From contig CAMAFY010000002.1 of assembly GCA_945833885.1 (NCBI GenBank), positions 1 to 64,000 on the forward strand: a stretch of DNA of 64,000 bases, in the 5' to 3' direction. The position numbers and the translations under genes were made by a program. This DNA comes from an uncultured Bacteroidales bacterium. GTDB taxonomy: Bacteria > Bacteroidota > Bacteroidia > Bacteroidales > Bacteroidaceae. This document shows positions 4,061 through 60,042 of this stretch, in pieces. Numbering within the stretch: the stretch's first letter is position 1; every line of letters starts with the position of its first letter. A model generated the notes under the pieces. It was not told where the DNA came from and did no database searches. It saw nothing but the letters and a program-made list of their open reading frames with translations.

Positions 4061-4170
4061 GGTCTCAAGAGCCTTTTGTTTATGGCTTGAAGAGCCGTTG
4101 TTAAAGGTTCGCAGGGCAGTTTTTTACAGATGGAAGTGCCGTTGTTTAAGGGCGGTGCCTTCGTTATTTG
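4061..4170. repeat. 22-bp periodic array, five units, running into the ribD stop codon
   Basis: Units of 22, 23, 22, 22 and 21 bp begin at 4061, 4083, 4106, 4128 and 4150. The shared core reads approximately GAAGTGCCGTTGTTTAA, seen as AAGAGCC, AAGAGCC, CAGGGCA, GAAGTGCC and CGGTGCC at the same phase, each followed by a T-rich tract. The last unit includes the ribD stop codon at 4164-4166. It fills the gap between ribD and the LRR gene. Confidence 0.7.
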
Positions 4171-5171
4171 AAGTCCACATAATGGAGTTTTCTCACAGGA
4201 CTTTTCCAATGTAGGAAGGTACTTCCCGCATGAATTTCGCGTTCGGGTTTGAATTCTGCGGGCATTTGCGGGGCTTCCACACCGTCGCCGAGGCGTATGT
4301 CGGAGATTTCTTCCCACGCTTCGTCCCAGAGGTCGCGCTCGATGAAGGTCTGGAGTGTTGCCGCCCCTCCCTCGACGAGCAGGGATTGTATGCCGTCGCG
4401 ACGGAGACTGTCGAGAAGACTGTCCACATCGGCGTAGGCCTGGAATCCGGCGTTCAGGGCTTCCTCCCCCACTCCACCGAGGACGCATCGCAGAGGATTG
4501 CGCCCGCCATAGCAACGGACGTTGAGGCGTGGATGGTCGAGTTCGAAGGTCTTTCTGCCGACCAATATGGCCTGATGTGTGGCTCTCAGATGGTGGACAT
4601 GCACGGTCGACAGCGGCGTTGACAGGCGTGCCGGCATCCCGTCCTCGTACTTTTCGCGGTGGCGGTCAATGAATCCGTCGGCACTTGCCGCCCATTTCAG
4701 GGTGATGAACGGCCGTTGCATGAGGTTGTAGCAGAGGAAATGGCTGATAAGGTCGAGACATTCCTCACGAAGTACGCCCACCGTGACGTCGATTCCCCCT
4801 TTTTCCATGATTTCAATACCGCGTCCCGCCACTTTTGCAAAGGGGTCGACGCATCCAACCACGGCATGTCCGATGCCTTTCCGCACCAACATCTCCGCGC
4901 AGGGCGGTGTCCGGCCATAGTGGGCACAGGGTTCAAGGGTGACATAGATGGTGGATTCGGGCAGGAGTGCAAGGTCCTGTGGGCTGACGCTCCGCATGGC
5001 CATGACCTCGGCATGGGGTTCTCCCGCCTGATGGTGCCAACCTTCGCCCAGAATGCGCCCTTCGTGGACGATGCATGCACCGACCATCGGATTGGGATGT
5101 GCGGTGGTTTCGCCGTTGCGGGCCAGTTGTAAGGCGCGGCGCATCCAGGTTTCGTGGGATGTTTCAGACAT
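4164..5171 (-). CDS. ribD: Bifunctional riboflavin biosynthesis deaminase/reductase RibD
   Basis: 335 residues from the chosen start. The N-terminal half is a cytidine-deaminase-fold domain with zinc ligands His53 (EPHAEVMAM, with catalytic Glu55), Cys82 and Cys91 (TLEPCAHYGRTPPC). The C-terminal half is the RibD reductase domain (FITLKWAASADGFID; ATHQAILVGRKTFELDHPRLNVR; SLLVEGGAATLQTF). It deaminates and then reduces the pyrimidine intermediate made from GTP in riboflavin synthesis. A longer reading frame begins at 5228, but the extra 19 residues are not family-like. The ATG at 5171 (MSETSHETWMRRALQLA) matches normal RibD N-termini. It is divergent from prmC, with a 22-bp array between them. 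Confidence 0.95.
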   Translation of the reverse strand: MSETSHETWMRRALQLARNGETTAHPNPMVGACIVHEGRILGEGWHHQAGEPHAEVMAMRSVSPQDLALLPESTIYVTLEPCAHYGRTPPCAEMLVRKGIGHAVVGCVDPFAKVAGRGIEIMEKGGIDVTVGVLREECLDLISHFLCYNLMQRPFITLKWAASADGFIDRHREKYEDGMPARLSTPLSTVHVHHLRATHQAILVGRKTFELDHPRLNVRCYGGRNPLRCVLGGVGEEALNAGFQAYADVDSLLDSLRRDGIQSLLVEGGAATLQTFIERDLWDEAWEEISDIRLGDGVEAPQMPAEFKPEREIHAGSTFLHWKSPVRKLHYVDFK

Positions 5172-5299
5172 AAGAAAGGGGAAAATATTGGGAAGTCGTG
5201 CCGGCAATGTTCCGGACGGCACAACCATAAATTAAGATATCGTGCTTTCGTTCCGCCTGTCTGGCAAATCGAAAACGTGGCGTTTTATAGGTGATAAAG

Positions 5300-5454
5300 G
5301 GAGGACCTTCAATTCATTGGTGAGGTTTTTCACCATCAATGAACAGATGTTCCCTTATTTTTGGACAGATATTTTCAATTCATTATAGAGGTGTTACCCG
5401 TGAAATGAATGTGGAAATTCAAATTCCTGGACGGGTGTTTTCCATACGTTATCC
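5300..5454. repeat. 22-bp periodic array, seven units, between divergent ribD and prmC
   Basis: Units begin at 5300, 5322, 5344, 5366, 5388, 5411 and 5432 (lengths 22, 22, 22, 22, 23, 21, 23). Each begins with a variant of GAGGTGTTTTC (GAGGACCTTC, GAGGTTTTTC, CAGATGTTCC, CAGATATTTTC, GAGGTGTTACC, GTGGAAATTC, CGGGTGTTTTCC), followed by an AT-rich part that is poorly conserved. It occupies most of the 384-bp gap between ribD and prmC. Nothing else was seen there except the prmC promoter. Confidence 0.8.
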
Positions 5455-5543
5455 GGTTTTCCATATTATGTCGGGGCGGTGTTTCCGTAGCGACCTCCCC
5501 CACTCTTCCGTATGAAGGATAGTGGAAAGTGGAGAAAATGTTG

Positions 5544-5551
5544 TATCTTTG
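5544..5551 (+). promoter_or_regulatory. -7 box TATCTTTG of prmC, immediately before the start codon
   Basis: TATCTTTG matches the Bacteroidetes TAnnTTTG box and lies only four bases before the ATG at 5556. This places transcription initiation at or next to the start codon and rules out the upstream GTG (5529) and ATG (5538) as starts. Confidence 0.75.
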
Positions 5552-5555
5552 CGGC

Positions 5556-6401
5556 ATGGAATACGCTTTGGATACCCTTTACCATCGTATTTGCCGTGAA
5601 CTTTCGCGGCGGATGGATGCCGGAGAAGCGCAGGCTGAGGCCTTTGCCCTCCTGGAAGATTTGTTCGATGTTCGGCGCACCGATGTGCTGATGGGGCGTC
5701 GTCTGCATGTCGATGACGCTGAGGACGAGCGCCTTCAACGGGCGATTGAAGCCCTTGATGCGGGTTCTCCGTTGCAATATGCCACAGGTCGCGCCCTTTT
5801 CTGCGGCAGATATTTCCGGGTTGACGGCAATGTCCTCATTCCGCGTCCGGAAACCGAACTGCTTGTGCGGCTTGTTGTGGGCTGTTGTCCGGAGCGTGTG
5901 CTCGATTGTGGCACCGGCAGCGGGTGCATTGCCGTAAGTGTTGCGCTCGAACTGCCGTCGGCGAGGGTCGAAGCGTGGGATATTTCGCCCGCCGCCCTTG
6001 CCGTCGCCCGTGGGAACGCCGAGGTTTTGGGTGCAAAGGTTGATTTCCGGGAGTGCGATATGTTGCAACCGCCCTGTGCCGACGGGGAGCAATACGATGT
6101 CATTGTCAGCAATCCTCCCTATATCTGCCGCAGCGAATCGGCGGAGATGGAGGCACACGTGACGGAATTTGAGCCGCATCTCGCCCTGTTTGTTCCGGAC
6201 GACGACCCGTTGAGGTTTTATGTCGCCCTTGCCAACCTCGGTCTTTTGCGTCTGCGTCGCGGCGGAACCTTGCTCTTGGAGTGCAATCGCCGGTATGCCG
6301 ATGCGGTGTCTTCGATGCTGACAGCGGCAGGCTACGTCCGTTGTGAGGTCATTCCCGACTGTTTTGGCGCTCCCCGTATGGTCAGAGCAGTGCGCGGCTG
6401 A
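5556..6401 (+). CDS. prmC: Peptide chain release factor N5-glutamine methyltransferase PrmC
   Basis: 281 residues, close to the usual length of about 280. SAM-binding motif DCGTGSG is at residues 117-123, the catalytic NPPY motif at 186-189, and the family motif LIPRPET at 94-100. The enzyme methylates the GGQ glutamine of release factors RF1 and RF2. The frame is open upstream to a GTG at 5529, but the promoter box sits inside that extension, so the ATG at 5556 (MEYALDTLYHR) is preferred. The mRNA is probably leaderless or nearly so. The 3' end overlaps the convergent SpoU-type methyltransferase gene by 20 bp. Confidence 0.95.
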   Translation: MEYALDTLYHRICRELSRRMDAGEAQAEAFALLEDLFDVRRTDVLMGRRLHVDDAEDERLQRAIEALDAGSPLQYATGRALFCGRYFRVDGNVLIPRPETELLVRLVVGCCPERVLDCGTGSGCIAVSVALELPSARVEAWDISPAALAVARGNAEVLGAKVDFRECDMLQPPCADGEQYDVIVSNPPYICRSESAEMEAHVTEFEPHLALFVPDDDPLRFYVALANLGLLRLRRGGTLLLECNRRYADAVSSMLTAAGYVRCEVIPDCFGAPRMVRAVRG

Positions 6402-6975: not shown

Positions 6976-6999
6976 GCTTGGCAGTTGCGGTGTGTGTTC

Positions 7000-8334
7000 T
7001 TACTTGCTCTTGATGTGGAGCATGCGTTTCAGCGCATTGTCGTTCAGAGGTTTCGCCTCATATTTGCCGCCTGTTATCTCGCTTACAGAGATAGGGCGGT
7101 ACATTTCTGTGTATGCCGCGCCCGGACCATACGTCTCTTCTTCATAGAAGAACGCTATTCTGCCGTCGCTTTGTTGGCACATGGTGGAGTAGGCGCTGTT
7201 GATTTCGCTCACGACATAAGGTCCTTCCCAGCCCGTTGCGAACGTGGCGGGGGTGACATAGTCGTATGACGAGTGCAAAGGTTTGTAGTAAATGCCCACG
7301 CGGTACCGTCCCGGACCGAGGGGAACGCTCTGGAATGCCACGGGAATGGTCTTGCCTTTGCTTTGGTCAATGGTGTTTATGATGAGGATTTCTCCGTTGC
7401 AGGCATTCTGCTTCGCCACTACACCACCCTCTTGTTCCTGGCTTGCCACCACTTCCTGCCACAGTCCGGTGGCCTTTCTGCGGGAGATGTAGTTGAAGAT
7501 GTTGAAGTGTCTGCCGCCCCATGCGCGACTTGACAGCACGACATCGCCGTTGGGGAGTTCCTCAATCTTGGGCTCGTCGCCTTGGGGTGCAGGACTTTCG
7601 TCGATGTTTCCCAATGCATTCCACGTCCGTCCGAAGTCATCGGAGTAGACAACGCGGTTTCCGCCGGGGCGGGCACAGAGGGCTGCGTAGATTCTGTAGT
7701 ACTTTCCTACCTTGACTATGCGGCTTTGGCAGATTCTTCCGCTTCCGAAGAAGAGGCTTTGCACGGGTCCGAGTGCGCTTTTGTCGAAGAGGCTGTAGAT
7801 GCTTTCGGTGATTTCCTCGGGTGCGTTCCATGTCTCGCCGTTGTCGTACGAACGAATGACCGCCACACGGTTGGGGTTCTGCCGCGTGGTTGTGGAATGT
7901 CCGTAGACGGTGTTGCCGGTTACGCACACCACCAGCACCTCTTGCGAGCGTGAATCCGCGACAATGGCGGCGTCGCCGTAGCCACACCGTACGCTTCCGT
8001 CCACGCCGTCGCCCTCAGCCATGGTCATTTCCGGCGACCAGTGCAGACCATTGTCGTCGGAAATGCGGTAATGCAGGTCGACACGTCCGAATCCTATGTC
8101 GCCACCACAGTAGCGGTAGTCGCTGACAGCAATGAGGTTTCCGTTTGACGCCGTAGCGATGGCGGGTATACGGTAGGGAATGCTGTCGCCAAGATGGGTC
8201 TGGAAGAGCGGTTGTTCAACCGATGTGGTGCAGATGCTCTTGGGAACGGATGTCTTTTGTGTGGAAGATTCCTGGGCCATCGCCGTGAAAACGCCGGCAA
8301 GGGCCACCAGGCAGGGAAGAAAGATTCGTTTCAT
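7000..8334 (-). CDS. Secreted exo-sialidase (GH33)
   Basis: 444 residues from the ATG at 8334, which gives a normal signal peptide (MKRIFLPCLVALAGVFTAMA). The sialidase YRIP motif is at residues 54-57, with the arginine-bearing SDYRYCGGDIGFGRVDL segment after it. Asp boxes are at 92-99 (SDDNGLHW), 162-169 (SYDNGETW) and 231-238 (SDDFGRTW), followed by DEPKIEELPNGDVVLSSR with candidate catalytic Glu. It releases terminal sialic acids from glycoconjugates. No sialic-acid catabolism genes lie nearby. The frame is open upstream to 8655, but that extension lies outside the signal peptide and is low complexity. Confidence 0.93.
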   Translation of the reverse strand: MKRIFLPCLVALAGVFTAMAQESSTQKTSVPKSICTTSVEQPLFQTHLGDSIPYRIPAIATASNGNLIAVSDYRYCGGDIGFGRVDLHYRISDDNGLHWSPEMTMAEGDGVDGSVRCGYGDAAIVADSRSQEVLVVCVTGNTVYGHSTTTRQNPNRVAVIRSYDNGETWNAPEEITESIYSLFDKSALGPVQSLFFGSGRICQSRIVKVGKYYRIYAALCARPGGNRVVYSDDFGRTWNALGNIDESPAPQGDEPKIEELPNGDVVLSSRAWGGRHFNIFNYISRRKATGLWQEVVASQEQEGGVVAKQNACNGEILIINTIDQSKGKTIPVAFQSVPLGPGRYRVGIYYKPLHSSYDYVTPATFATGWEGPYVVSEINSAYSTMCQQSDGRIAFFYEEETYGPGAAYTEMYRPISVSEITGGKYEAKPLNDNALKRMLHIKSK

Positions 8335-8474
8335 ATCTCTGTTTTTTTTGTTATCGGAAAGGATGGTTGTGGGGTGAATCGGTAGGCTTTTCCGGGAAGG
8401 TGGAAAGGCAAGTCCCGCATGGAGGTGGCGCGGATGCCGGTGTTTGCCGGTGCAGATGCCGTTTTCCTGCGGCG

Positions 8475-10238
8475 TCAGGCTTTGTTCGCCTTGCGGTCGT
8501 CCTCGATGAGTTTGAGGAGTTTCTCCACGGCTTCCTCTGCGGGGATGTTCTTTTCCACGCACGTTTTTCCGCGATACAGACTCACTTTTCCGCGTGCCGC
8601 ACCGACATATCCGTAGTCTGCGTCCGCCATCTCTCCGGGTCCGTTGACGATACATCCCATGATGCCGATTTTAAGTCCCCTAAGATGTCCGGTCGCCGCC
8701 TTGATTCGGGCGATGGTTCCCGGAAGGTCGTAGAGTGTGCGTCCGCATCCGGGGCATGAGATGTATTCGGTTTTCGTCATGCGGAGCCGTGCCGCTTGAA
8801 GGATGGCAAAGGCGGTGTCGACGGCAACCTTGTTGGGAAGATGCTTGTTTTGCAGGAAAAGTCCGTCGCAGATGCCGTCGAAGAGCAGGGCGCCCACGTC
8901 GGCCGCCGTCGCCAGTTGGAAGTCTTCGCGGTTGTCCATTTCGGACTTCACGCATACGATGACGCGGTTGTCGAGTCCCTCGCGCCACATTTCGTGAACG
9001 AGGGCGCGGATTTCGCCGGTGAAATTGCGGTGTATGGAGATGGCGATGACGGTGATTTCGGGCATCATGCGCAACGCTGCCCGCACTTCATCGTTGAGTT
9101 GCAGATAGGAAAGGAAGAGGAATTTGCGTTTGGCGGGGCATATCATGGCGAAAAGCAGGTCGTTCACCGTGTAGGCGGGGAAGGTTCCCGGCTCGTTCTT
9201 CCATGCATTGGCGGGAAGAATGTCGCGTCCGAAGACCAAATCCGCCATGCCTGCGCCCTCGGGACCGTAACTGATGACCTCGGGTACGGACGAATGGCGG
9301 CGTTGTGGCCGTGAATATTTGAAGTCGGGCGCCGCGACGGCTGGGATGTGCGGATGTCCCGAGCGCGTCTGTGCGATGTATGCCGCCAGTTTGTAGGCGA
9401 CGGGAATCTCGGCCTCCGGCTCTTCGCTCAGACTAACGCGGATGGTGTCGCCGATACCGTCGGCAAGCAGGGCTCCAATGCCGACAGCGCTCTTGATGCG
9501 TCCGTCCTCTCCCTCGCCGGCCTCCGTCACTCCGAGGTGGAGGGGGAAGGACATTCCCTCGCGTTCCATGGCTTCCACAAGCAGGCGCACGCTCTGAACC
9601 ATGATGACGGTGTTGCTCGCCTTGATGCTGATGGCCACATTCGTGAACGCCTGTTTCTGGCAAACGCGGAGGAATTCGAGGCAACTTTCCACGATACCCT
9701 CGGGGGTGTCGCCATAGCGCGACATGATACGGTCGGACAGACTGCCGTGGTTGACGCCGATGCGCAGGGCTGTTCCGTGCTCCCGACAGATGTCGAGGAG
9801 GTGTGTGAAGCGTTCTTCGAGGCGCCGGAGTTCAGCGGCGTATTCCTCATCGGTGTATTCCAGAGCCTTGAAGGTGCGTGCGGGGTCGATGTAGTTGCCG
9901 GGATTGATGCGCACCTTCTCCACGATGGTCGCCGCCACGTCCGCCACATTGGGGTTGAAGTGCACGTCGGCGACGAGCGGAGTGTCGTATCCGCGCTGGC
10001 GGAGTCCGTCCTTTATGTTCCGGAGGTTCTCTGCCTCGCGTGTTCCCTGCGTGGTCAGGCGCACGATGTCCGCCCCTGCCTGTATGATTCTGATGCACTG
10101 TTCCACGCAGCCTTCGGTGTCGGTGGTGGCGCGTGTGGTCATGCTCTGCAAACGCAGCGGAGCCCCTCCGCCCAGAGTCAGGTTTCCGAGGTGGATGGTA
10201 TGGCTTTTTCGGGGATTATAGTTGAAAAGGTCGACCAT
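8475..10238 (-). CDS. ispG: 4-hydroxy-3-methylbut-2-enyl-diphosphate synthase IspG (long Bacteroidetes type)
   Basis: 587 residues, much longer than the roughly 370 of enterobacterial IspG, because of the internal domain typical of Bacteroidetes, Chlamydiae and plants. The N-terminal TIM barrel begins with SHTIHLGNLTLGG and RLQSMTTRATTDTE. The C-terminal iron-sulfur domain carries the cluster ligands Cys495 and Cys498 (CPGCGRT) and Cys529 with Glu536 (GCIVNGPGE). It acts in the MEP isoprenoid pathway, upstream of the polyprenyl synthase at 28.4 kb. The neighbouring purE is on the same strand 90 bp upstream and the pair may be co-transcribed. Confidence 0.96.
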   Translation of the reverse strand: MVDLFNYNPRKSHTIHLGNLTLGGGAPLRLQSMTTRATTDTEGCVEQCIRIIQAGADIVRLTTQGTREAENLRNIKDGLRQRGYDTPLVADVHFNPNVADVAATIVEKVRINPGNYIDPARTFKALEYTDEEYAAELRRLEERFTHLLDICREHGTALRIGVNHGSLSDRIMSRYGDTPEGIVESCLEFLRVCQKQAFTNVAISIKASNTVIMVQSVRLLVEAMEREGMSFPLHLGVTEAGEGEDGRIKSAVGIGALLADGIGDTIRVSLSEEPEAEIPVAYKLAAYIAQTRSGHPHIPAVAAPDFKYSRPQRRHSSVPEVISYGPEGAGMADLVFGRDILPANAWKNEPGTFPAYTVNDLLFAMICPAKRKFLFLSYLQLNDEVRAALRMMPEITVIAISIHRNFTGEIRALVHEMWREGLDNRVIVCVKSEMDNREDFQLATAADVGALLFDGICDGLFLQNKHLPNKVAVDTAFAILQAARLRMTKTEYISCPGCGRTLYDLPGTIARIKAATGHLRGLKIGIMGCIVNGPGEMADADYGYVGAARGKVSLYRGKTCVEKNIPAEEAVEKLLKLIEDDRKANKA

Positions 10239-11519: not shown

Positions 11520-11651
11520 CGGCATGGGGACGCCGTGAAATCCCCTGAGTCTTCCGGTGGAAACCCCGGAACTTTCTGTGGTAAAGTGCGGCACTTTGTG
11601 GTGCGAAGTTCCGCACATTCCGTGGCGAACCTCCGTGGTTTATGGCAAGAT
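11520..11651. repeat. 22-bp periodic array, six units, CGGCACTTT family
   Basis: Units of exactly 22 bp start at 11520, 11542, 11564, 11586, 11608 and 11630. Cores at the same phase are CCCCGGAACTTT, GTGCGGCACTTT, GTTCCGCACATT and CCTCCGTGGTTT, with GAA, AAA or related bases closing each unit. The same consensus recurs in the arrays near 29.7, 43.6, 50.4 and 60.0 kb. Confidence 0.85.
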
Positions 11652-24216: not shown

Positions 24217-24348
24217 TTGTATCAATTTGATGTACGTTTTTTTCTGGTTGAAAAAGTGGTGTTGCTGTGTTGTCGCGCGTAATATTTGCCGTCGTTCTAT
24301 GGAATTTCCATTGCCATATATTTGGCGCACATTTTCGCTAAACGTGTG

Positions 24349-24356
24349 CAAAATTA
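24349..24356 (-). promoter_or_regulatory. -7 box TAATTTTG of the DUF4493/PCMD operon
   Basis: Minus-strand TAATTTTG, about 130 bp upstream of the first operon start codon. No clear TTTG at -33. Confidence 0.55.
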
Positions 24357-24442
24357 CGAAGAATATCGTCTTTTGTCCTAAAAATTATGGTAAAAGGTAC
24401 TAAAAATTCCCAAAAGTTTCGGTAATTACCGATATTTTCATC

Positions 24443-24472
24443 TTTGTATATCAAAGCATTACCATAATTTTG
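24443..24472 (+). promoter_or_regulatory. Orphan plus-strand promoter reading into the gene-free locus
   Basis: TTTG at 24443-24446 and TAATTTTG at 24465-24472 with an 18-bp gap: both elements of the Bacteroidetes consensus at acceptable spacing. There is no plus-strand gene downstream before the convergent polA end. Confidence 0.6.
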
Positions 24473-24588
24473 TTTGGCGAAGAAGGTTTTTCCGGCGCTG
24501 CTTCCGGGCAATTTTCAGCACCTTCAATGTGTTTTTTTGAATGTTGATATATGGTGGTTTCCTTTATCCCTCAGAGCGGTTCCGCAGG

Positions 24589-24764
24589 TCTTAAAACTTT
24601 ATTTTGGTCATTGCAGAAGTTCTTTCCGACCATTGTAAAACATCCTTCAGGTCATCGGTAATGTTCTTTCCTGCCATTCTTAAACTTCCTTCCGTTTGGA
24701 TGAGAATTTGTTCCGTATGTGAGGGGATCCGCCTCTCGCGAATCTCGAAAATTATTCGGATGCA
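24589..24764. repeat. 22-bp periodic array, six clear units plus weaker continuation
   Basis: Units of exactly 22 bp begin at 24589, 24611, 24633, 24655, 24677 and 24699. Each has a core like TAAAACTTCTTTCC followed by GGTCA, GACCA or TGCCA in the first four units. The two units after 24720 keep the period with a weaker match. It lies 117 bp downstream of the orphan promoter. Confidence 0.8.
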
Positions 24765-24987
24765 GTTTCTGGAAATTTTGGATTGGAAGATGTAAAACAC
24801 CGGAAAAAACGCGTGGGTTATGGTGTGAGGATGCGGCCTTTTCAGGCGTAAGGATGCCGTGTGTTCGGGTGTAAAATGCTTCTGCACATTTGTTTATTAT
24901 TCTTTTCCTACAATTTTTTTTTTCGAATTTCTTATACACATCCTACACTAATAGGGGGAAATTGTCAATGAGGATTTGGAATTTATG

Positions 24988-25017
24988 GGTGTAGGATGGG
25001 AAAATCCATCCTACACC
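24988..25017. repeat. Perfect 12-bp-arm inverted repeat containing GTGTAGGAT
   Basis: Arms GGTGTAGGATGG and CCATCCTACACC around a six-base AT-rich loop. A half-site ATCCTACAC also occurs at 24940-24948. There is no T tract, so an operator or RNA structure is more likely than a terminator. Confidence 0.8.
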
Positions 25018-25040
25018 GTGCGGGGAAAACACCCGTTTGG

Positions 25041-25061
25041 AGTGTAGGATAATCCTACACT
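25041..25061. repeat. 21-bp perfect palindrome containing GTGTAGGAT
   Basis: AGTGTAGGAT, one central A, then ATCCTACACT. It repeats the core of the inverted repeat 48 bp to the left (centre to centre), suggesting a pair of protein-binding sites. Confidence 0.8.
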
Positions 25062-25097
25062 TTTGGAAGAAACACGGCGTTTTGAACTACAAAATGA

Positions 25098-38762: not shown

Positions 38763-39011
38763 AGTATAACACATTGATAATCAGGTTTCTGCATTTATTT
38801 CCGGCGTATTCTGCGGAACTGCATCGCAAGTATCGTCCCTAAGATGCCGATGTTGCGTTCCCGTTGTCCGGACTTCCCGCCGGTGTCCTTCCCTTCTGCC
38901 GATACCGCCATCGGAAAGGACGGTGGTTCCGGATAAGGAATGCCGAAAAGAGTCCAAGAATTGGCAAATAGCAACCCACTAAACAATTATACAAATTTAC
39001 GGTGGTAATTG

Positions 39012-39023
39012 ATAGAACCCACC
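39012..39023 (+). repeat. Left copy of a 12-bp inverted repeat flanking the GH2 gene
   Basis: ATAGAACCCACC; its exact reverse complement lies at 43290-43301, just after the GH2 stop codon. Confidence 0.6.
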
Positions 39024-39065
39024 AAAAGGGAAACCTTCCCCGATAATAACCCCCATCTTTTACTT

Positions 39066-42000
39066 ATGAATCGAACACATCTTTCTGTGCTTTTCCTTGC
39101 CGCAGCCTTTGCTGCTGCCGTACCAGCCGGGGCTCAAGCCCTTGGTGGCCGTCCGCTTCTTGGCGGATATGCCTATGATACTCAGGTAAAAGGACCCGAC
39201 GGACGCGAGTGGAACGACCCCACACGCCTGGCTCTTAACAAACTTCAGCCCCATGCTTGGTTTTTTAGTTTCAAGAATGCTGATGAAGCCACCGGTGTTC
39301 TGCCTGAAAAATCATCGTTCTGGAAGAGCCTGAACGGTGAGTGGCAGTTCTGCTGGGTCGGCAATCCTGAGGACCGTCCTGTCGGATTTTATGCCACAGA
39401 CTACAAGATGGGCGATGACAAACATCAGTGGAACAATGTGGAGGTTCCCATGAATTGGCCCGTGGCAGGCCTTCAAAACGATGGCACACAACAGTGGGGA
39501 ATGCCCATTTATTCCAACCAGCGCGTCATCTTCCAGCACCAGGTGAAGGTGAATGACTGGAAGGAGGGCGTCATGAGAGAGCCTTCCAAGGACTGGCTGA
39601 CCTACAAGAACCGTAACGAAGTGGGCTCGTATCGCCGCACTTTCACCATTCCCGAGGATTGGAACGGCCGTGAAATCTATCTCGATTTCGATGGTGTCGA
39701 CTCGTTTTTCTACCTCTATATCAACGGACATTACGTAGGTTTTTCCAAAAACTCCCGTTCCACCGCCTCGTTTGACGTCACTCCTTACCTCGTTCCTGGG
39801 GAAAACGTAGTCGCATGTGAGGTATATCGTCAGAGCGACGGCAGTTTTCTCGAGAGCCAGGACATGTTCCGTCTGCCGGGAATCTTCAGAACGGTAGCCA
39901 TTCATAGCAAGCCTCGCCTGCAAATCGCCGACCTTGTGGCCGTGGCTTCCGCACCTACGACCCTCAATGTCAACGCCATCGTACAGAATCTTGAGGCGAA
40001 GGCTGTAAAGGGTGCGCAAATTTCCTATTCGCTCTACGAGAAGGAACTTTACGGAGAGGCGGTCACTCCCGTGGCATGCACCGTCAGCGGGCAGCCGTCG
40101 TTCGATGTTTCCGCTGACGTCACGCAGAGCATTACCCTCACATGTCCGCAGGCCAAGCCCTGGAGCGCCGAAGCCCCCCACCGCTATGTCCTCGTGGCCG
40201 AGTTGAAGGATGCTGCGGGAAAGGTCGTGGAGACCGTGTCCACCATTGTCGGTTTCCGCACTTGTGAGATCCGCGAGACGGCAGCCGCCGACGACGAGTT
40301 CGGATTTGCCGGACGGTATTACTACCTTAACGGCAAGCCGGTGAAGATGAAAGGCGTCAACCGTCACGAGAATTCGCCCGAAAAGGGCCATGCCATCACC
40401 CGCGAACAGATGGAAAAGGAGGTGATGCTCCTCAAGCGCGGCAACATCAACCACGTCAGAAATTCGCATTATCCCGACGATCCCTACTGGTATTATCTGT
40501 GCGACAAGTACGGAATCATGCTCGAAGACGAGGCAAACATCGAAAGTCACCAGTACTATTACGGGAAAGAGTCGCTCTCATGGGTGCCGGAATTCCGTGA
40601 CCACCACGTTGCCCGCAACATGGAAATGGTGCATCAGCACGTCAATCATCCGTCCATTTGCATCTGGTCATTGGGAAACGAGGCCGGACCTGGCGATAAT
40701 TTCGTCGAAGCCTACAAAGCAATCAAGGCATTTGACGGCAGTCGTCCCGTACAATACGAAAGAAACAACTCGATTGTCGACATGGGCTCCAACCAATATC
40801 CGTCCATCGCATGGGTTCAGGCGGCAGTCAAGGGTGAGGAAAAGGGACTTGTCTATCCTTTCCACATTTCTGAGTATGCCCATTCTATGGGAAATGCCGT
40901 CGGAAACCTTGTGGATTATTGGAAAGCCATTGAAAGTACCAACTTCTTCATCGGCGGTGCCATCTGGGATTGGGTGGACCAAGCCATCAACAACTACACT
41001 CCCGACGGCAAGAAGTATTGGGGTTACGGTGGCGATTTCGGCGACAAGCCCAATGATGGTATGTTCTGTATGAACGGAATCATGCGTCCCGACCTTACGC
41101 CGAAGGCACAGTATTTCGAGGTGAAGAAGGTATATCAGAACGTCGCCGTCCGTCCTTACGACCTGAAAGCCGGGAAGGTGGAGATTTTCAACAAGAACTA
41201 TTTCGAGGACCTTTCCGACTATACGGTGGTATGGAGTCTGTATGAGGACGGTTTGCAGGTGGCAACCGACAATCTTGGCACCAGTTGTCAGGCGGTAGGT
41301 CCCCGACAGAAGGGTATCGCCACATTGGGATATACCACCTACGACTTCGACCCCTCGAAGGAATACTACGTGAAAGTCCAGTTCCTACAAGCCGAAGACC
41401 GACCCTGGGCCAGCGCCGGTTACGTGCAGATGGAGGAGCAGTTGCTCTTGCAGTCTCCCACAGTCGCCCCCGCCATCGCCGGGGAAATCCGCGCCGACCT
41501 CGAGGCTTCCGGTGCCGGCAAGGAGGCGTTGCTCGTCCAGAAGCCGAGCATTTCCGACGGAAGCATTGCATTCTCCGGCCAGAATTGGGAGGTTTCGTTC
41601 GACACCTCAAAGGGAAGCATCTCGAATCTCAAATATAATGGCGAAAACATCTTCAATGCCGGTGAGGGTCCTGTGCTGAATGCCTTCCGTGCCCGCACGG
41701 ATAACGACAACTGGTGCGACTATAAGTGGCCGCAACTCGGGCTCCACAACCTCCAGCACCGCGCGCTTTCCTTCTGCCATTACGCGAGAAAGGATGGGGC
41801 ATACGTCCTCAATTTCACCGTCGAGAGCCAGGCTCCTTACGGCGGAGACGACCGTTACAGCAACCGTGACCGCAATCCTGAGACGGTTTATACCATCATG
41901 GAGAACACGCGGCAGCGCTTCGGCGAGGACGACTTCAAGTTTATCACCAACCAGGTGTACACCATCTACCCCGACGGTTCCGTAGAATTGGAGGCCGCCA

Positions 42001-43259
42001 TTGCCGCCAGCGACGACAACATCGACCTTCCGCGCATCGGATACGCCATGCAGTTGCCCACGGAGTACGACAATTTCCTCTATTATGGCCGTGGTCCTGT
42101 CAACAACTACAACGACCGTCGCACATCACAGTTCGTAGAAATCCACAAAGGTCGCGTCGGCGAGCAGGATATCATGCTGCCGAAGCCCCAGGAGATGGGC
42201 AACCGCGAGGAGGTTCGTTGGTGCGCCCTTACCGACCAATTCGGACATGGCGCGGCGTTCATCGCCACAACACCCGGATATGCCCATGTTGAGGATGCCG
42301 GCGACCTGCTCTTCGGCACGCCATCCACGGCACCCGCCGTCCCGACCATGAGTGTCAGCGCCCTGCCTTGGAGCCAACTCGAACTGATGGAGGCCGCTCA
42401 TCCCTACCAACTGCCGAAGTCTTCCGCCACGCATCTCCTGCTCGACGCCAAAGTCATGGGTCTTGGCGGCAACAGTTGCGGACAGGGCGGTCCCCTCAAA
42501 CCCGACTGTGTGAAGAGCGTGGGCTATGATTTCGGTTTCATCATCCGTCCTTTCACCCTTTCCACGCAGGCTGAAAGTATCTCCGAGCAGGCAGAATCCC
42601 TCAGAGGTGTGCTGAATGTCAGCGGAAGTGGCGACTATCCCCTCTCCATCCTCCGCGACAGCCGCGGGAAACTCAGCATCAAGAGCCTCGCTGAGGGCCG
42701 GAAGGTGATGTACAGCGTCGATGGCGGCAAGGCGAAAGCCTACACATCGCCCGTCGAACTGCGTCAGGGCGGACTCGTAAAGGCCTGGTTCGCCGACAAC
42801 CGCAAGGTGGTCTTCAGCCAACGTTTCGCTAAGATTGAGAGCGTGCCCCTCGAGGTCGTCTTCTGTTCCAGTCAGGAGTTCGGCGAGGGAAATGCCACGC
42901 ATCTCGTCGACGGTGACCTCGGAACCATCTGGCATACCATGTATTCCGTCACCGTAGCACAGTATCCCCATTGGGTAGACTTCGACGCCCTTGATGCCAA
43001 ACTTATGAAGGGCTTCATCTATACTCCCCGCCGCAACGGCAGCAACGGCAACGTCAAGGACTACGAAGTCTATGTCAGCCAGGACGGACAGTCGTGGGGA
43101 GAGCCTGTAAAGAAGGGAACTTTCGCCAACGATGGCAAAGCCCAGCGCGTAGAGTTCGGCACTCCCGTTCAAGCACGCTACATCCGTTTCAAGGCATTGT
43201 CGAGCCAGAACGGTCAGGACTTTGCTTCCGGAGCGGAATTCTCCCTCATCGCCGAATGA
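39066..43259 (+). CDS. Secreted GH2 beta-galactosidase with C-terminal F5/8C-like domain
   Basis: 1,397 residues from the ATG at 39066 (signal peptide ending VPAGAQA). The order is the sugar-binding jelly roll, Ig-like domain, TIM barrel, a further Ig-like domain, beta-galactosidase small chain and a discoidin-like C-terminus. Acid/base Glu539 lies in LGNEAGPGDN and the nucleophile Glu603 in ISEYAHSMGN; GVNRHENSPEKG precedes them. The last 150 residues (ATHLVDGDLGTIWHTMY, VDFDALDAKLMKGFIYTPR, NVKDYEVYVSQDG) are an F5/8C carbohydrate-binding domain like that in the M60 peptidase. The substrate is a beta-galactoside, perhaps mucin O-glycans. The frame extends upstream to 39009 without a signal peptide. 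Confidence 0.95.
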   Translation: MNRTHLSVLFLAAAFAAAVPAGAQALGGRPLLGGYAYDTQVKGPDGREWNDPTRLALNKLQPHAWFFSFKNADEATGVLPEKSSFWKSLNGEWQFCWVGNPEDRPVGFYATDYKMGDDKHQWNNVEVPMNWPVAGLQNDGTQQWGMPIYSNQRVIFQHQVKVNDWKEGVMREPSKDWLTYKNRNEVGSYRRTFTIPEDWNGREIYLDFDGVDSFFYLYINGHYVGFSKNSRSTASFDVTPYLVPGENVVACEVYRQSDGSFLESQDMFRLPGIFRTVAIHSKPRLQIADLVAVASAPTTLNVNAIVQNLEAKAVKGAQISYSLYEKELYGEAVTPVACTVSGQPSFDVSADVTQSITLTCPQAKPWSAEAPHRYVLVAELKDAAGKVVETVSTIVGFRTCEIRETAAADDEFGFAGRYYYLNGKPVKMKGVNRHENSPEKGHAITREQMEKEVMLLKRGNINHVRNSHYPDDPYWYYLCDKYGIMLEDEANIESHQYYYGKESLSWVPEFRDHHVARNMEMVHQHVNHPSICIWSLGNEAGPGDNFVEAYKAIKAFDGSRPVQYERNNSIVDMGSNQYPSIAWVQAAVKGEEKGLVYPFHISEYAHSMGNAVGNLVDYWKAIESTNFFIGGAIWDWVDQAINNYTPDGKKYWGYGGDFGDKPNDGMFCMNGIMRPDLTPKAQYFEVKKVYQNVAVRPYDLKAGKVEIFNKNYFEDLSDYTVVWSLYEDGLQVATDNLGTSCQAVGPRQKGIATLGYTTYDFDPSKEYYVKVQFLQAEDRPWASAGYVQMEEQLLLQSPTVAPAIAGEIRADLEASGAGKEALLVQKPSISDGSIAFSGQNWEVSFDTSKGSISNLKYNGENIFNAGEGPVLNAFRARTDNDNWCDYKWPQLGLHNLQHRALSFCHYARKDGAYVLNFTVESQAPYGGDDRYSNRDRNPETVYTIMENTRQRFGEDDFKFITNQVYTIYPDGSVELEAAIAASDDNIDLPRIGYAMQLPTEYDNFLYYGRGPVNNYNDRRTSQFVEIHKGRVGEQDIMLPKPQEMGNREEVRWCALTDQFGHGAAFIATTPGYAHVEDAGDLLFGTPSTAPAVPTMSVSALPWSQLELMEAAHPYQLPKSSATHLLLDAKVMGLGGNSCGQGGPLKPDCVKSVGYDFGFIIRPFTLSTQAESISEQAESLRGVLNVSGSGDYPLSILRDSRGKLSIKSLAEGRKVMYSVDGGKAKAYTSPVELRQGGLVKAWFADNRKVVFSQRFAKIESVPLEVVFCSSQEFGEGNATHLVDGDLGTIWHTMYSVTVAQYPHWVDFDALDAKLMKGFIYTPRRNGSNGNVKDYEVYVSQDGQSWGEPVKKGTFANDGKAQRVEFGTPVQARYIRFKALSSQNGQDFASGAEFSLIAE

Positions 43260-43499: not shown

Positions 43500-43699
43500 A
43501 AATTTCCGGGAACCTTGGAATAAACTCGCCGGCTTTCCGGTTCTTTTTTTTGGACTTGCCGGAAAATATGCGGAACATTGCATCCGAAACCTTGGAACTT
43601 TGTGCTGTAAACTTCCGCACTTTGTGCCACAAACCTCGGCACTTTCCGGAAAACGTTCCGGAGCATCCTCACGGAGGCTTGCGGTGTTCCCGTCCGGAG
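43500..43699. repeat. 22-bp periodic array, nine units, CGGCACTTT family
   Basis: Units begin at 43500, 43522, 43544 (25 bp), 43569, 43591, 43613, 43635 (21 bp), 43656 and 43678. The best four (from 43569) have cores TGCGGAACATTG, CTTGGAACTTTG, TTCCGCACTTTG and CTCGGCACTTTC and end in AAAC or AAACG. The array ends about 85 bp before the helicase start. The 523-bp gap holds no gene. Confidence 0.88.
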
Positions 43700-46001: not shown

Positions 46002-46197
46002 GTCTGCGCTTTCTCGTAGGGAATGCCCTTCTTCTCGTCTGGGAAAGTCTTTTTCTCACCTGAAAAAGTCTTCTTCCTGCCTTGGAAAGTTCCTTTTCCC
46101 GTTAGAGATACTCCCGCTTCCCGCCTTGGAAAGTTCCGTTTTCCATCTGGAAAAGTTCCTCTCCCGCCCGGGAAAGTCCGTACGTTTCGGAAACCCA
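46002..46197. repeat. 22-bp periodic array, nine units, directly upstream of the 1,189-residue secreted protein
   Basis: Units begin at 46002, 46025, 46047, 46068, 46089, 46111, 46133, 46155 and 46176 (21-23 bp). The core is GTTCCTTTTCCC with a CTTGGAAA ending (CTGGGAAA, CTGAAAAA, CTTGGAAA, CTTGGAAA, CTGGAAAA, CCGGGAAA). It ends 16 bp before the start codon at 46214, so it must lie in the promoter or leader of that gene. The 532-bp gap also holds the short array at 45738. Confidence 0.88.
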
Positions 46198-49980: not shown

Positions 49981-49999
49981 GTATGTTCGTTCGGATGGC

Positions 50000-50110
50000 A
50001 TTGAAGGTGATGCGGAAATATTTTGGAGATGTCACGGGAGTTTTTAGGAGATGCCATGGAAACGTTTTGGAGATATTATGGGAATGTTCAGAAGATGCCA
50101 CGGGAAATGT
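50000..50110. repeat. 22-bp periodic array, five units
   Basis: Units begin at 50000, 50022, 50044, 50066 and 50088. The core is TTTGGAGATGCCACGGGAAA (seen as GGAGATGTCACGGGA, GGAGATGCCATGGAAA, GGAGATATTATGGGAA and GAAGATGCCACGGGAAA). It is followed directly by the 81-bp element. Confidence 0.88.
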
Positions 50111-50203: not shown

Positions 50204-50340
50204 ATGCCTCCACGCCCCTGAAATATGCATCTTCTCCTTTTTTCGCGCCCTTTCGCGCCCTTTTTCCGCTTGACCCTTCCCCTTTTCTGTCCCGAAATGC
50301 CGCGTTTCTCATGGGCCGTGGCGCTGGAAACGGCGGAAAA

Positions 50341-50494
50341 CGCGTGCGGAAACGGTGGAAAACCACCGCAGATGCCATCCGGAACCTCCGCACTTTCATT
50401 TTGAAACCTCCGATGTTTGCGTCTGAAACCTCTGATGTTTGCACCTGAAACTTCCGATGTTTGCGCCCGAAACTTCCGCACTTCCCGCAAATCC
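50341..50494. repeat. 22-bp periodic array, seven units, CGGCACTTT family
   Basis: Units of exactly 22 bp begin at 50341, 50363, 50385, 50407, 50429, 50451 and 50473. Cores CCTCCGCACTTT, CCTCCGATGTTTG, CCTCTGATGTTTG, CTTCCGATGTTTG and CTTCCGCACTTC, four of them closing with GAAA. Among the best-preserved examples. Confidence 0.92.
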
Positions 50495-51076
50495 CTGCGG
50501 AATTGAGTGTGAAAAGGGCGCGTCGGCAGATGGGCATTTTTTCGGACCGGCGGACGCGATGCTGGGTTCCGGAGCCCTTCTCAGCGCGTTTGCGACGCGT
50601 TTTCTGCGGGTGGAAAGGGCGGAAATCTCCACTCCCCGAAAATTGCACACCTGCCTTTTCGCGTTGCCGTTGCCGCCATCGTGGTGCCACCCTCCCCACT
50701 TATCTTCCTTGCGTTTCCGCCCTCCCCCGGTTTGTTTCCAATCTTCCCCCAATCACCCTTCCCGCCCTCCTTCTGTGCTTTCCCCGCCTTCCCCCTATCC
50801 CCTTCCGACCCTCTCCCCCTTGCGTTTCCGTCCTTTCCTGCCGCAATGCCCCTGCCGCTTTTCGCAAATTCCCGATGTCCGGACGGGCAACAGTCGCGGA
50901 GTGAGGGAGGAACAAAGGGCGAAAAGCCCTGAGGGAGCGGAGGTTACGGGTTGCCGGATGCCCGCTTCCGTGTGCGTTTTACCGCATTTTTTTTGCCGTA
51001 AATCAGTAATAAAAACCTGCCTTTTCGTCCATTGTCGGAGAAAAATGGGTGAAAATATTCAATTTATGCTGATATT

Positions 51077-52239: not shown

Positions 52240-52275
52240 AGATTACCCACTCATTAACCAATTCTATATCGACAA

Positions 52276-54145: not shown

Positions 54146-57100
54146 ATGAAGAAAATTTCTACTCTTCTTCTGGGTCTTGCCCTTACCGCATCGGCATCGG
54201 CACAGTCCCTAAAGGTGCATACCTTCCCTTCTGTTACGCAGAAGGCTGAGGTAAAGACTCGTCCTCAGGTACGTAAGGCTCCGCTCAACGAAGACAAAGA
54301 GTTGGGTAAGTTGTTCTATGGTGCCACACAAGACGACGCATCTAATGAACCTGGTATCATCAAGTTCTATTCCAGCGATTTCTATAACTTGGAGAAACTC
54401 TGTATTATTTACGATGGTACAGACAACGAAATGGAACGTCGTACCACACTCCTCGGAGGAACATGGTATGAAGATGAGGATGGCGAGGGTGCATACTACG
54501 GTTATAGCGTCATCAATTACGATATGGGCTACACCTTTCCCCAGTATTTCATGAAAATAGATCTGGAGACGGGAGAGAAAACAATTGTGGAGGACCTCAC
54601 AAGTCTGAAGTCAAGTTGGCAGATTGTGGACGATATGAAGCAGAACCCCGTAGACAACAAACTCTATGCTATGCGTCAGGCTGCGGATGGTCTGTATTCT
54701 GAGTTCGGAACCGTGAATCCCGCTACCGGTGACTTCACCACTCTCGTACAGGCAGAGTACTGGTATCCCTCCATCGCATACGATGCTGATGGTAAACTCT
54801 ACGGCGTTCGTCCCACATTAAAGTCCAATGGCTTTGACGATGAAGGCTATGAAACTTTCGACATCGTCGGAAGTGTCTTTGCACAACTCGAACTGCAGGA
54901 CGGTCAGTTGGTGGAGGTTGAAAAGGTAAGCCTCAAATCTTGGGGTGAGAATTTCTGTATGTGGTATACCAATTCAATCTATGTTGACCAGGAGACTGGC
55001 AAGATTTATGGTTCCCTTATGGACCAAAATTCTTGGGGTCAGTACTTATATACGATTGACAAAGAGTCGGGAGAACTCACTTATGCTGGCTCCAGTCACA
55101 GCACGGTTCGCGGACTTTATTCGCCCTCTTATAAGACCGATAGCCGCGAGGCTGCCGCAAAAGTTTCCAACGTTTCCTCTGTTGCCGGAGAGAATGGTCA
55201 GAGCATCACGCTGACATGGACCAATCCTACCCTGCAGGTGAACGGCGAAACCCTTACCGAACTCGCTGAAGTCCGCATTTTCTGCGGCTCTCCCAGCGGT
55301 ATTGCTTACGCCACTCTGCCTGCTGAAGGCAAGATGGGCGAGGTGATGTCTTGGACCGATGTCAATCCCGAGCCGGGTGTCAACACCTATTTCATTGTTC
55401 CCTGCCGCAAGGAAGGCGAACTCGGTTATCCCGAAAGTTGGAATGCTTGGGGTGGTCCTGACGCTCCTGGTGCTCCTTCGTACGTAAATGCTGAGCGCAG
55501 TGGTAACGGTGTCCTCGTATCATGGCCTGCACCTGAGGCCGGTTTGCACGGAGGTTGGTACAGCGCAGATGGCGTAACTTACACCATCAAACGCTATCCT
55601 GACGAGAAGGTTCTCGCAACAGGTCTTACCGAAACTTCCTACTTCGACAACGTGTTCGACGCCATCAACTACTACAGTTACACCGTATACGCTACCAACA
55701 CTGTCGGTGACGGCGAGGAAACTTCTTCGTACCCCATCCTGGCAGGTCCCGCACATGATGTTCCCTACACCTCTGTTATCAACTCTTCTGAGGAGGCTGA
55801 GGCATGGACAATCATTGACGGCAACAACGACGGAACCCAATTCTCCTATTCCTCCTGGTACGCGCCTTTTGGTCTGATGCTCTACACCAATAAACCTGGA
55901 AGCAGCGACGATTACGCCGTATCTCCCGCCATTAAACTTGAAGGTGGTAAGACCTATAAGGTGCAGATGACCATCAATATCAACTATCCTTACGATGAAG
56001 AGAACCTTCCGGACAACCTGCATGACTTCGAATTCGTAGCAGGTCAGGGTACTACTGTTGAGGATCTTACCAACGTGTTCTACAAGGTTGATCAGTACAA
56101 GAACCCCTATTACGGCAACATTGCTTCGAACCACTTCTCGGTACAGTTCACTCCTGAGACTTCCGGTGAATGGAATATCGCACTCCATTGGCTGACCTCC
56201 AACGTATATGACTGGATTACTCTTGAGAGTTTCTCCATCAGCGAAGTCTTCGCCAACGACCTTGCTGTTGAAGAAGTTGAGGCTCCTGAGTTCGCAACTG
56301 TCAATACTGTTGCTCCCTTCTACGTAACGGTTGTGAACGAAGGTTCTGCCACTTCAGAAAACTACACGGTAGAAGTTGTGGCACAGAACGGCGAAAGCGA
56401 AGAAGTTGTCGGTGAAAGCGCTACCAATGGTGGACTCACTCCCGGCAGCAGTGCAAGAATCTATGTCGGTGCTTCCTTCGCAACTGCTGGAGACATCCAG
56501 GTTTACACTCGCGTGGTCTATGCTGCTGACGAAGAACCTACAAACAACGTTTCCGATTTCACGACCGTTACCGTAGAGAAGGAAGGCACTGTTCCCTTCT
56601 ATGCCGAGTTCAACACTGGTGAAAGTCTGGGCGTTGACACTCAGGCTCCCATCTGCTCATGGAAGCCCCACAGCACTTTCCAGAGCATCTACTATCCTTC
56701 TGAACTCTCTGCCCAAGTTGAGGGTGACCTTCTTACAATCTCTCGCATCGGACTTGACTACAGTTCGAACGAAGGTGCCACATTCTCTGACTACAATGTC
56801 AAAGTTTATCTCAACACGACCGATAAGAAGTGCTACACAAGTACGGATTACCTCTCCCATACTGAGGTGACCGAATGGGTAGACTTCGGAACTCTCTGCT
56901 TCGATGGTCAGGTAAGCACCGTTGATGGTCAGAACAAGATCCTTGCATTTGACCTGAATGAGGAGTTCTCTTACGACCTTAGCAAGAACCTTGTCGTAAC
57001 TATTGTCAAGGAAGGTGAGATTCCTGACAATGGTTATCCCGTACTCTTCAACACCTATAACAACATAGATGATGGTTGGGGTACCGACGATTATGGTAAA

Positions 57101-57400
57101 CTCCTCCGTTCTATCTTCTACAATGGCAAGTCTGCCTTCAACTTCGATGCAACGAAGGTGTATGGTAAGATGTGGCTTCCCATCCTCCATGTTGCGGCTA
57201 AGGAATACCTTGTCGGCATTGATGAAGTAACCTTCGGCGGCGAAGAGAATGCCCTGAACGGCGTTGTAAACGTCTACAATGTAAGTGGTCAACTCGTGAA
57301 GTGTGGCGAATTCAACAGCATTGAGCAACTCGGTCTCCAGAGCGGTCTCTACATTGTTCGCGACAACAACGGCAATACCAAGAAGATTCAGGTGAAGTAA
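54146..57400 (+). CDS. Large secreted multidomain protein with FN3-like domains and C-terminal sorting-like domain
   Basis: 1,084 residues. Signal peptide LLLGLALTASASAQ. Residues 50-330 look like a repeat-type beta structure (GKLYGVRPTL, ATGDFTTLVQAEYWYPSIAYD, SLMDQNSWGQYLYTID). FN3-like segments follow at about 345-420 and 440-530 (GVLVSWPAPEAGLHGG; ATGLTETSYFDNVFDAINYYSYTVYATN). A cleaved-adhesin or jelly-roll domain lies at about 540-700 and a CARDB-like domain at 710-800. The C-terminus (GVVNVYNVSGQLVKCG ... QSGLYIVRDNNGNTKKIQVK) is sorting-like. Function unknown, probably adhesive. Codon use in this gene is more T/A-rich at third positions than in its neighbours, which may reflect high expression or a different origin. 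Confidence 0.75.
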   Translation: MKKISTLLLGLALTASASAQSLKVHTFPSVTQKAEVKTRPQVRKAPLNEDKELGKLFYGATQDDASNEPGIIKFYSSDFYNLEKLCIIYDGTDNEMERRTTLLGGTWYEDEDGEGAYYGYSVINYDMGYTFPQYFMKIDLETGEKTIVEDLTSLKSSWQIVDDMKQNPVDNKLYAMRQAADGLYSEFGTVNPATGDFTTLVQAEYWYPSIAYDADGKLYGVRPTLKSNGFDDEGYETFDIVGSVFAQLELQDGQLVEVEKVSLKSWGENFCMWYTNSIYVDQETGKIYGSLMDQNSWGQYLYTIDKESGELTYAGSSHSTVRGLYSPSYKTDSREAAAKVSNVSSVAGENGQSITLTWTNPTLQVNGETLTELAEVRIFCGSPSGIAYATLPAEGKMGEVMSWTDVNPEPGVNTYFIVPCRKEGELGYPESWNAWGGPDAPGAPSYVNAERSGNGVLVSWPAPEAGLHGGWYSADGVTYTIKRYPDEKVLATGLTETSYFDNVFDAINYYSYTVYATNTVGDGEETSSYPILAGPAHDVPYTSVINSSEEAEAWTIIDGNNDGTQFSYSSWYAPFGLMLYTNKPGSSDDYAVSPAIKLEGGKTYKVQMTININYPYDEENLPDNLHDFEFVAGQGTTVEDLTNVFYKVDQYKNPYYGNIASNHFSVQFTPETSGEWNIALHWLTSNVYDWITLESFSISEVFANDLAVEEVEAPEFATVNTVAPFYVTVVNEGSATSENYTVEVVAQNGESEEVVGESATNGGLTPGSSARIYVGASFATAGDIQVYTRVVYAADEEPTNNVSDFTTVTVEKEGTVPFYAEFNTGESLGVDTQAPICSWKPHSTFQSIYYPSELSAQVEGDLLTISRIGLDYSSNEGATFSDYNVKVYLNTTDKKCYTSTDYLSHTEVTEWVDFGTLCFDGQVSTVDGQNKILAFDLNEEFSYDLSKNLVVTIVKEGEIPDNGYPVLFNTYNNIDDGWGTDDYGKLLRSIFYNGKSAFNFDATKVYGKMWLPILHVAAKEYLVGIDEVTFGGEENALNGVVNVYNVSGQLVKCGEFNSIEQLGLQSGLYIVRDNNGNTKKIQVK

Positions 57401-59811: not shown

Positions 59812-59863
59812 TCCATAGGCTAACGGCGGTTTGCGCCGCCCGTCAGCCGGAAGTTTCCACTAT

Positions 59864-59910
59864 AATCCCCCAGGCCACCATCCCCTTCGGATGGCAGGCT
59901 TGGGGGATTT
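59864..59910 (+). terminator. Terminator of the secreted protein gene at 57715
   Basis: Stem AATCCCCCAGGCC/GGCTTGGGGGATT (one G-T/A mismatch region) with an inner CATCC/GGATG pair and a T tract, 52 bp after the stop. Confidence 0.85.
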
Positions 59911-59932
59911 CCTTTCCGCCCGCTCCCGATGG

Positions 59933-60042
59933 CCTCGGAACATGGCCTTGAAAAGTTCCGCATTTCCCGCACGGAAGTTCGGAACTTTCCCCTCAGAAGT
60001 GCCGCACTTTCGGGGGGAAACATCCGCACTTTTTCCGGCGTA
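59933..60042. repeat. 22-bp periodic array, five units, CGGCACTTT family
   Basis: Exactly 22-bp units at 59933, 59955, 59977, 59999 and 60021. Cores CCTCGGAACATG, GTTCCGCATTTC, GTTCGGAACTTT, GTGCCGCACTTT and CATCCGCACTTT; the first four close with GAA or AAA. It directly follows the terminator at 59864. The rest of the 660-bp gap up to 60350 shows no gene. Confidence 0.9.

Follow-up and report, generated by a model that had tools for sequence, protein, structure and literature searches.

What holds stretch after stretch of the intergenic DNA of an uncultured Bacteroidales bacterium to a period of 22 bp? The question is raised by 64,000 nucleotides of its contig CAMAFY010000002.1 (assembly GCA_945833885.1, positions 1 to 64,000 of the forward strand; the window in what follows), in which an earlier note made from the letters alone had described at least sixteen intergenic arrays of consecutive units of about 22 bp. 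We found that the period is real and that one family of the arrays consists of a palindromic unit repeated at exactly two helical turns, an arrangement that may reflect rows of sites for a dimeric DNA-binding protein. The assembly, with 89 contigs totalling 3.11 Mb and a completeness of 87%, was sampled and not read whole: the window and 20 further stretches of 20 kb form the 464-kb sample behind most own-species counts below, and coding and intergenic DNA were separated by a home-made gene caller.

The 22-bp period stands far above dinucleotide-shuffled intergenic DNA, which confirms its description in the earlier note. When 30-bp windows (at least 19 matches) were compared with 30 shuffles of the window's intergenic DNA, 327 positions matched at lag 22 (shuffle mean 0.1, maximum 3) and 251 at lag 44 (at most 2 in the shuffles). 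A scan of the raw window (44-bp windows, at least 27 matches, lags 8 to 59) returned 336 positions at lag 22, 252 at lag 44, 32 at lag 21, 26 at lag 45, 12 at lag 42 and none at every remaining lag. The note had proposed looking for the same excess elsewhere in the genome, and it was present in all 20 sampled stretches of 20 kb. Across the 464 kb, strong self-matches at lag 22 occupied 3540 of 101,282 intergenic positions and none of 340,455 coding positions, in agreement with the claim that the arrays avoid coding sequence; among lags 15–30 the intergenic runner-up was lag 21, with 323. In 235 intergenic regions lag 22 reached 3533, against a maximum of 12 in 30 dinucleotide shuffles, and repeats at one or three turns (11 and 33 bp; 66 and 71) were about 50 times rarer. 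Altogether 84 arrays (9183 bp) were called, with match rates of 0.634, 0.589, 0.548 and 0.519 at lags 22, 44, 66 and 88 over a base of 0.255. Outside them, under stricter masking, an 11-bp ripple and multiples of 22 remain (z 9.8 at lag 22), and this weak signal at 22, 44, 66 and 88 looks like decayed arrays. Per-gap tests in the window (gaps of at least 120 bp, 200 shuffles per gap, the better of two statistics, p floor 0.005) were significant at p < 0.01 in 11 of 23 gaps, and 12 arrays were called, spread over 10 gaps; the arrays of the earlier note are thus real, and its count was somewhat high at these thresholds. About 24% of the 464-kb sample lies outside called genes, exceeding 24 of 29 sampled congeners, and array growth may contribute to this high noncoding share.

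Thirty-three of the 84 arrays fit a single unit profile at the cut-off set for family membership (profile score of at least 7). The unit frame was fitted by expectation maximization (EM) with phase and strand free, and the profile scored 445, and ten controls, made by permuting columns one array at a time, scored 191–208; controls were equally free and had fewer restarts (10 against 30 for all 84 arrays, 6 against 25 for the 51 remaining arrays). The shared unit is AAANNNC-S-GNNNTTT, an inverted heptad around a 1-bp centre, which makes a 15-bp odd palindrome, followed by a 7-bp linker. The most frequent heptads are AAAGTGC, AAACATC, AAAGTTC and AAACCTC, and 161 of 167 sites have G or C at the centre. 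Sites were then searched by sequence alone, blind to period. The exact frame occurs 94 times in about 112 kb of intergenic DNA and five times in about 352 kb of coding DNA, and all 72 intergenic pairs within 130 bp lie at 22 (33), 44 (21), 66 (11), 88 (5) or 110 bp (2). A looser pattern with up to two mismatches matched 168 times in intergenic and 33 times in coding DNA, and its reversed form 36 times in the 464 kb. Of 216 pairs no more than 120 bp apart, 209 were spaced by multiples of 22; the seven off-lattice pairs are at 50, 67, 72, 89, 94, 111 and 116 bp, with none at 21 or 23. Even with up to three mismatches, distances of 15–30 bp were 22 (115 pairs), 21 (2) and 23 (2). There are 34 runs of at least two sites, nine with three sites and 17 with four, and among 58 pairs beyond 120 bp no convincing phase was found.

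The linkers show what is conserved between the cores. Neighbouring units are identical at 0.77 of core and 0.449 of linker positions, and units of unrelated arrays in this species at 0.668 and 0.281. The linker sequence has mostly diverged and its length almost never, which points to selection on spacing. Units are also copied locally, since neighbours are more alike than distant units: similarity falls from 0.655 to 0.605 and 0.554 at separations of one, two and three units (30 arrays), separation one exceeds separation two in 23 of the 30, the linkers are identical in seven of the 93 adjacent pairs, and several arrays contain exact 22-mer repeats. At L016 (100–287) a 110-bp block made of five 22-bp units begins a second time, a higher-order repeat that implies multi-unit duplication. 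Part of the earlier suggestion of a slippage-driven family, namely local copying, therefore stands, but slippage alone fails to explain why diverged linkers stay 7 bp long.

It is in our judgement evenly balanced whether the arrays are rows of sites at which a dimeric protein, either a regulator or one associated with the nucleoid, stacks along a single face of the helix. Such a dimer would bind head-to-head on the inverted heptad, one monomer per turn, and dimers packed side by side on one face would need centres two turns apart, 22 bp here; with close to 11 bp per turn, sites 22 bp apart would be in phase. For such a protein the linker could have any sequence but would have to keep its length. 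A 22-bp tandem duplication would add an in-register site, so that duplication and retention by binding could reinforce each other, and purifying selection against indels would keep the register. The turnover of motifs between species would follow drift in the specificity of the protein. That a protein reads the arrays is the step we infer. The geometry has a counterpart in Bordetella, where BvgA dimers sit head-to-head on inverted heptads with centres 22 bp, or two turns, apart, several side by side on the same helix face, weak sites being tolerated (PMC7250471). Sites centred two turns apart were found here as well, and the inverted heptad in 33 of the 84 arrays only. BvgA arrays differ in lying at BvgA-activated promoters (PMC7250471), whereas ours lie at many loci including convergent gaps and vary between species in motif and period. 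By this comparison the own-species arrays appear to work like a cooperative operator array. Of the proposals in the earlier note, sites for a multimeric protein or phased bends fit best, by way of the inverted heptad on a two-turn lattice, and are partly supported overall.

Related genomes were surveyed in a genus set of 58 (own species and 57 congeners) and a family sample of 151 genomes in 30 genera. Congener samples were about 10–100 kb each with certain stretches masked, and nine of the 29 compared by lag were of 20 kb or less. Among the ten lags shown (16 and 18–26), lag 21 leads in 16 of these 29, in G051 jointly with lag 18; lag 22 leads in four, and 21 and 22 tie in one. Twenty other genera of the family, pooled at about 20 kb each, gave 490 at lag 22, 202 at lag 21 and 107 at the next, lag 14. 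Five other families of the order gave 2 at lag 22, 0 at lag 21 and 21 at lag 20; six farther genomes (four from the class and two from the phylum of our species) gave 4 at lag 22, 28 at lag 21, 110 at lag 24 and 79 at lag 12, 69 of these from one locus. Distances between recurrent words in the same orientation, a count in which overlapping words may enter one site pair several times, were 21 and 42 in G011 (30 of 30), 21, 42 and 84 in G033 (22 of 22), 21 in G036 (10 of 10), 22, 44 and 66 in G007 (34 of 34), 22, 44 and 88 in another genus, g20 (13 of 13), and 22, 44, 66 and 88 in our species (167 of 170). They were mixed in G005 (12 of 17) and in G008 and G010 (7 of 12 each, multiples of 21), and many sampled species were without any recurrent word pair. 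The units themselves are largely private to one or two species. Across the 58 whole genomes, our strict core has 115 sites at home and one in G031, CTTASTCWGASTAAG has 150 in G011 and none elsewhere, GTAACCSTASGGTTA has 39 strand matches in G007 and none elsewhere, and ATTGCATWATGCAAT has 25 in G033 and six in G002; reversed-pattern controls of the last three had no match in any of the 58. Both the palindromy of the shared unit and the differing units of related species had been overlooked in the earlier note. The reversed own core, absent at home, occurs nine times in G033, perhaps as another palindrome family there, and once each in G002, G037, G011 and G046. In viral contigs the strict core was found in 32 stretches, with one palindromic site in each.

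Several relatives show repeats of another kind. Short intergenic periods of 16 and 24 bp occur in G012 (L060, L094, L095) and G029 (L133), and periods of 8/9, 18, 27 and 36 bp in G065 (L111–L113). By eye, a three-unit element of similar sequence, with outer inverted repeats, recurs at several loci in G036 and G008 (L042 2227–2307 and 12851–12932; L089 8608–8683 and 12747–12822) and is more element-like than the own-species arrays. Palindromy of whole arrays, rejected for our species, was likewise seen by eye in some arrays of G036, G008 and G011.

Within the window, the five arrays that the earlier note had grouped under one consensus have the five highest family scores, and each holds three to five core sites in exact 22-bp register. 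They lie, like all arrays listed here without assigned strand, at 11542–11638 (score 8.2; cores at 11561, 11583 and 11605), in a convergent gap at 29722–29803 (score 9.0; 29722, 29744 and 29766), at 43571–43655 (score 9.7; 43587, 43609 and 43631), at 50324–50493 (about seven units, score 5.4 and so under the cut-off of 7; 50382, 50404, 50426, 50448 and 50470) and at 59950–60040 (score 9.8; 59952, 59974, 59996 and 60018). Called arrays with a consensus of their own occupy 4072–4151, 31862–31939, 38665–38769 (near-alike units, 91% by Tandem Repeats Finder) and 49998–50110 (22/44 bp); a 23-bp array at 24818–24874 and a weak C-rich 22-bp array at 50759–50817 were also called. About seven pyrimidine-rich units of period 21–22 stand at 46023–46175, directly upstream of the gene at 46214. 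Outside the 12 called are an alternating 44-bp (2 × 22) array at 24579–24702, whose gap (24217–25451) is significant at lag 44, and a weak 22-bp lattice at 5301–5461, best at lag 66 (gap 5145–5612, p 0.005). In the whole sample, 59 arrays lie in tandem, nine in convergent and eight in divergent gaps, the rest of the 84 being at stretch ends; gaps of at least 100 bp number 152, 19 and 24, and one gap may hold several arrays. Runs of the dominant, shared-unit family occupy 22, five and two of these gaps. The mean relative position in the gap is 0.47 (59 tandem cases), and a link to promoters or terminators was rejected, there being no concentration at gene starts or stops.

Some neighbouring genes deserve mention in their own right. 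Matches to GH101-like (weak), neuraminidase-related, LacZ-type beta-galactosidase-related and type IX secretion tail models at 162–2774, 7000–8655, 39009–43259 and 54146–57400 all fall under NCBIfam curated cut-offs, the secretion tail only narrowly, and suggest a host-glycan-degrading gut species. Other window proteins carry DUF4493, DUF6383 and outer-membrane barrel domains, and a GcpE (IspG) of 587 amino acids at 8475–10238, whose Pfam match is split in two stretches, is possibly a long form with an insertion.

A wider reading, which we find possible yet doubtful, is a genus-wide system in which the intergenic DNA of each species bears a palindrome of its own at exact two-turn intervals. 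A dimeric protein, with repeatedly re-tuned specificity and 21- or 22-bp pitch, would read it, and the whole would serve as a fast-evolving code of self-identity or chromosome architecture. A number of observations weigh against reading by a dimer, in our species or across the genus. Of the 84 arrays, 51 fall under the family cut-off; these keep the period with private consensuses, as the earlier note had said of arrays outside its five, and on average show no palindromy (mean z 0.59, seven above 2; the shared family has a mean of 2.36 with 20 of 33 above 2). They have some common pattern (EM score 177.5 against 129–142 in eight controls) and A/T phasing, with spectrum shares of 0.17 at 11 bp and 0.149 at 7.3 bp over a uniform 0.095, and could serve other proteins of this sort as sites, could be arrays in decay, or could have arisen by duplication alone. 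Forty sites with up to two mismatches are solitary, many perhaps by chance, because the reversed pattern yields 36 sites and coding DNA 33, and the middle triplet of each heptad is almost free, which is unusual in a specific site. The similarity of neighbours and the arrays of near-identical units show that duplication contributes. Neither 21 nor 22 leads in eight of the 29 congeners, some of these on very little DNA, and other word distances prevail in G061 (mainly 77), G012 (63, 16, 71) and G004 (33, 69). Transcripts of dominant-family runs would be more stably folded than shuffled sequence (mean z −2.23; for 34 runs on both strands, below −2 in 41 of 68 and below −3 in 23). Finally, no protein was identified as reader of the arrays. 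HU-HIG genes are present in all 58 genomes, with four in our species and three in G004, in which 80 kb held no array peak, so that their counts do not track the arrays; G064 (six contigs) has 30 HU-HIG matches, against 1–12 in the other 57, a lineage-specific expansion.

One explanation that dispenses with a dedicated reader is mutational: tandem duplication with a built-in two-turn step, through slippage or staggered breaks on phased, curved DNA. The common period of called arrays whatever their sequence, the local likeness of units with their exact 22-mer repeats, and the apparently decayed arrays beyond those called are what it would produce. We nevertheless hold it improbable, as it gives no reason for a single 15-bp frame to recur in 34 separate runs whose linkers are unrelated, or for linkers to keep a near-constant length once they have diverged. 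The scarcity of 11- and 33-bp repeats also counts against it. We would put at a similarly low level the view that the arrays are intrinsically curved DNA, to which a nucleoid protein of loose specificity binds and which serves to fold the nucleoid or to place supercoils. The phasing of A and T tracts to the helix that the earlier note had seen does exist: the tracts are co-phased at about 11 bp on average in intergenic DNA, also outside arrays, and out of phase with CCG/CGG, and the A-tract helical period is 10.80 in intergenic DNA outside arrays and 10.95 in coding DNA. Tong and Mrazek describe A-tracts phased near 10–11 bp and tied to curvature and nucleoid proteins (PMC3940949); theirs is a statistical signal across the genome, whereas ours are separate arrays built on a sequence frame, with a period that is exact and twice as long. 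Predicted curvature, from a simple wedge sum against shuffles, gives a mean z of 2.73 for the 33 dominant arrays and 1.40 for the 51 others at 11.0 bp per turn. These values fall to 0.73 and 0.46 at 10.5 bp per turn, and to 1.04 and 0.58 when the twists are those of the model itself. Curvature needs neither a 22-bp sequence repeat nor a CSG centre nor a private motif, and the helical period of nearly all relatives is too noisy to compare with their 21- or 22-bp arrays.

Dispersed mobile elements, of the repetitive extragenic palindromic (REP) or miniature inverted-repeat transposable element (MITE) kind, with one expanded family per species, seem to us quite unlikely, though private high-copy palindromes, discrete runs of three or four units and the recurring elements of G036 and G008 recall them. 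REP sequences and bacterial interspersed mosaic elements (BIME) with their RAYT transposases are likewise short, palindromic, intergenic, abundant and different in sequence between species (PMC3733652). They differ from our arrays, which form an exact head-to-tail 22-bp lattice, show no common GTAG/CGTC tag in the unit profile, cores and linkers of the 34 runs, and lack stem covariation (left and right triplets complementary in eight of 94 sites, against 9.9 in shuffles). Y1 transposase matches are not consistent among array-bearing species: one partial match in ours, four in G010, one each in G008 and G007, and none in G011, G002 and G005, in incomplete assemblies. Linkers of unrelated arrays match at about background, which means that the arrays did not arise by recent copying from a single element, and the full-length similarity between loci typical of MITEs was not found in our species. 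The layout also departs from that of clustered regularly interspaced short palindromic repeats (CRISPR), with contiguous 22-bp units and a 7-bp linker partly common to neighbours; no search for cas genes was made. The own-species arrays are thus neither REP, by tag and covariation, nor MITE, nor CRISPR-like in layout. Plasmid iterons and the end sites of MuA and TnsB are also repeated, helix-phased, protein-read sites of about 22 bp, confined to an origin or transposon end, whereas our arrays lie at many unrelated intergenic loci. No described system of such arrays turned up in searches of open-licence papers. Least probable of all are elements acting as RNA, whether terminator or mRNA-stabilising hairpins or repeat-derived small RNAs. 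The folding noted above speaks for them, and in six window arrays on both strands z ranges from −4.61 (29716–29803, minus strand), with −3.67 at 59944–60040 (plus strand), to +0.49. We take better-than-shuffle folding as a by-product of a palindromic frame, however, and the missing covariation between halves argues against hairpins. When linkers are compared with their mirror partners across a run (31 runs), complementarity is 0.333, hardly above the random 0.295, and direct similarity 0.517; arrays occur in tandem, convergent and also divergent gaps, and no Rfam family matched in the window. The processed small RNAs suggested in the earlier note are thus not supported.

If a dimeric protein does read the arrays, these gut bacteria would give part of their intergenic DNA to a regular lattice of protein-binding sites that changes in sequence from species to species and keeps its geometry. 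The arrays would then offer a natural experiment on the co-evolution of a DNA-binding protein with at least a hundred of its sites in every genome, and a way into the structure of the Bacteroidales nucleoid. Were duplication alone responsible, a genome-wide duplication step of exactly two helical turns would itself be a notable process.

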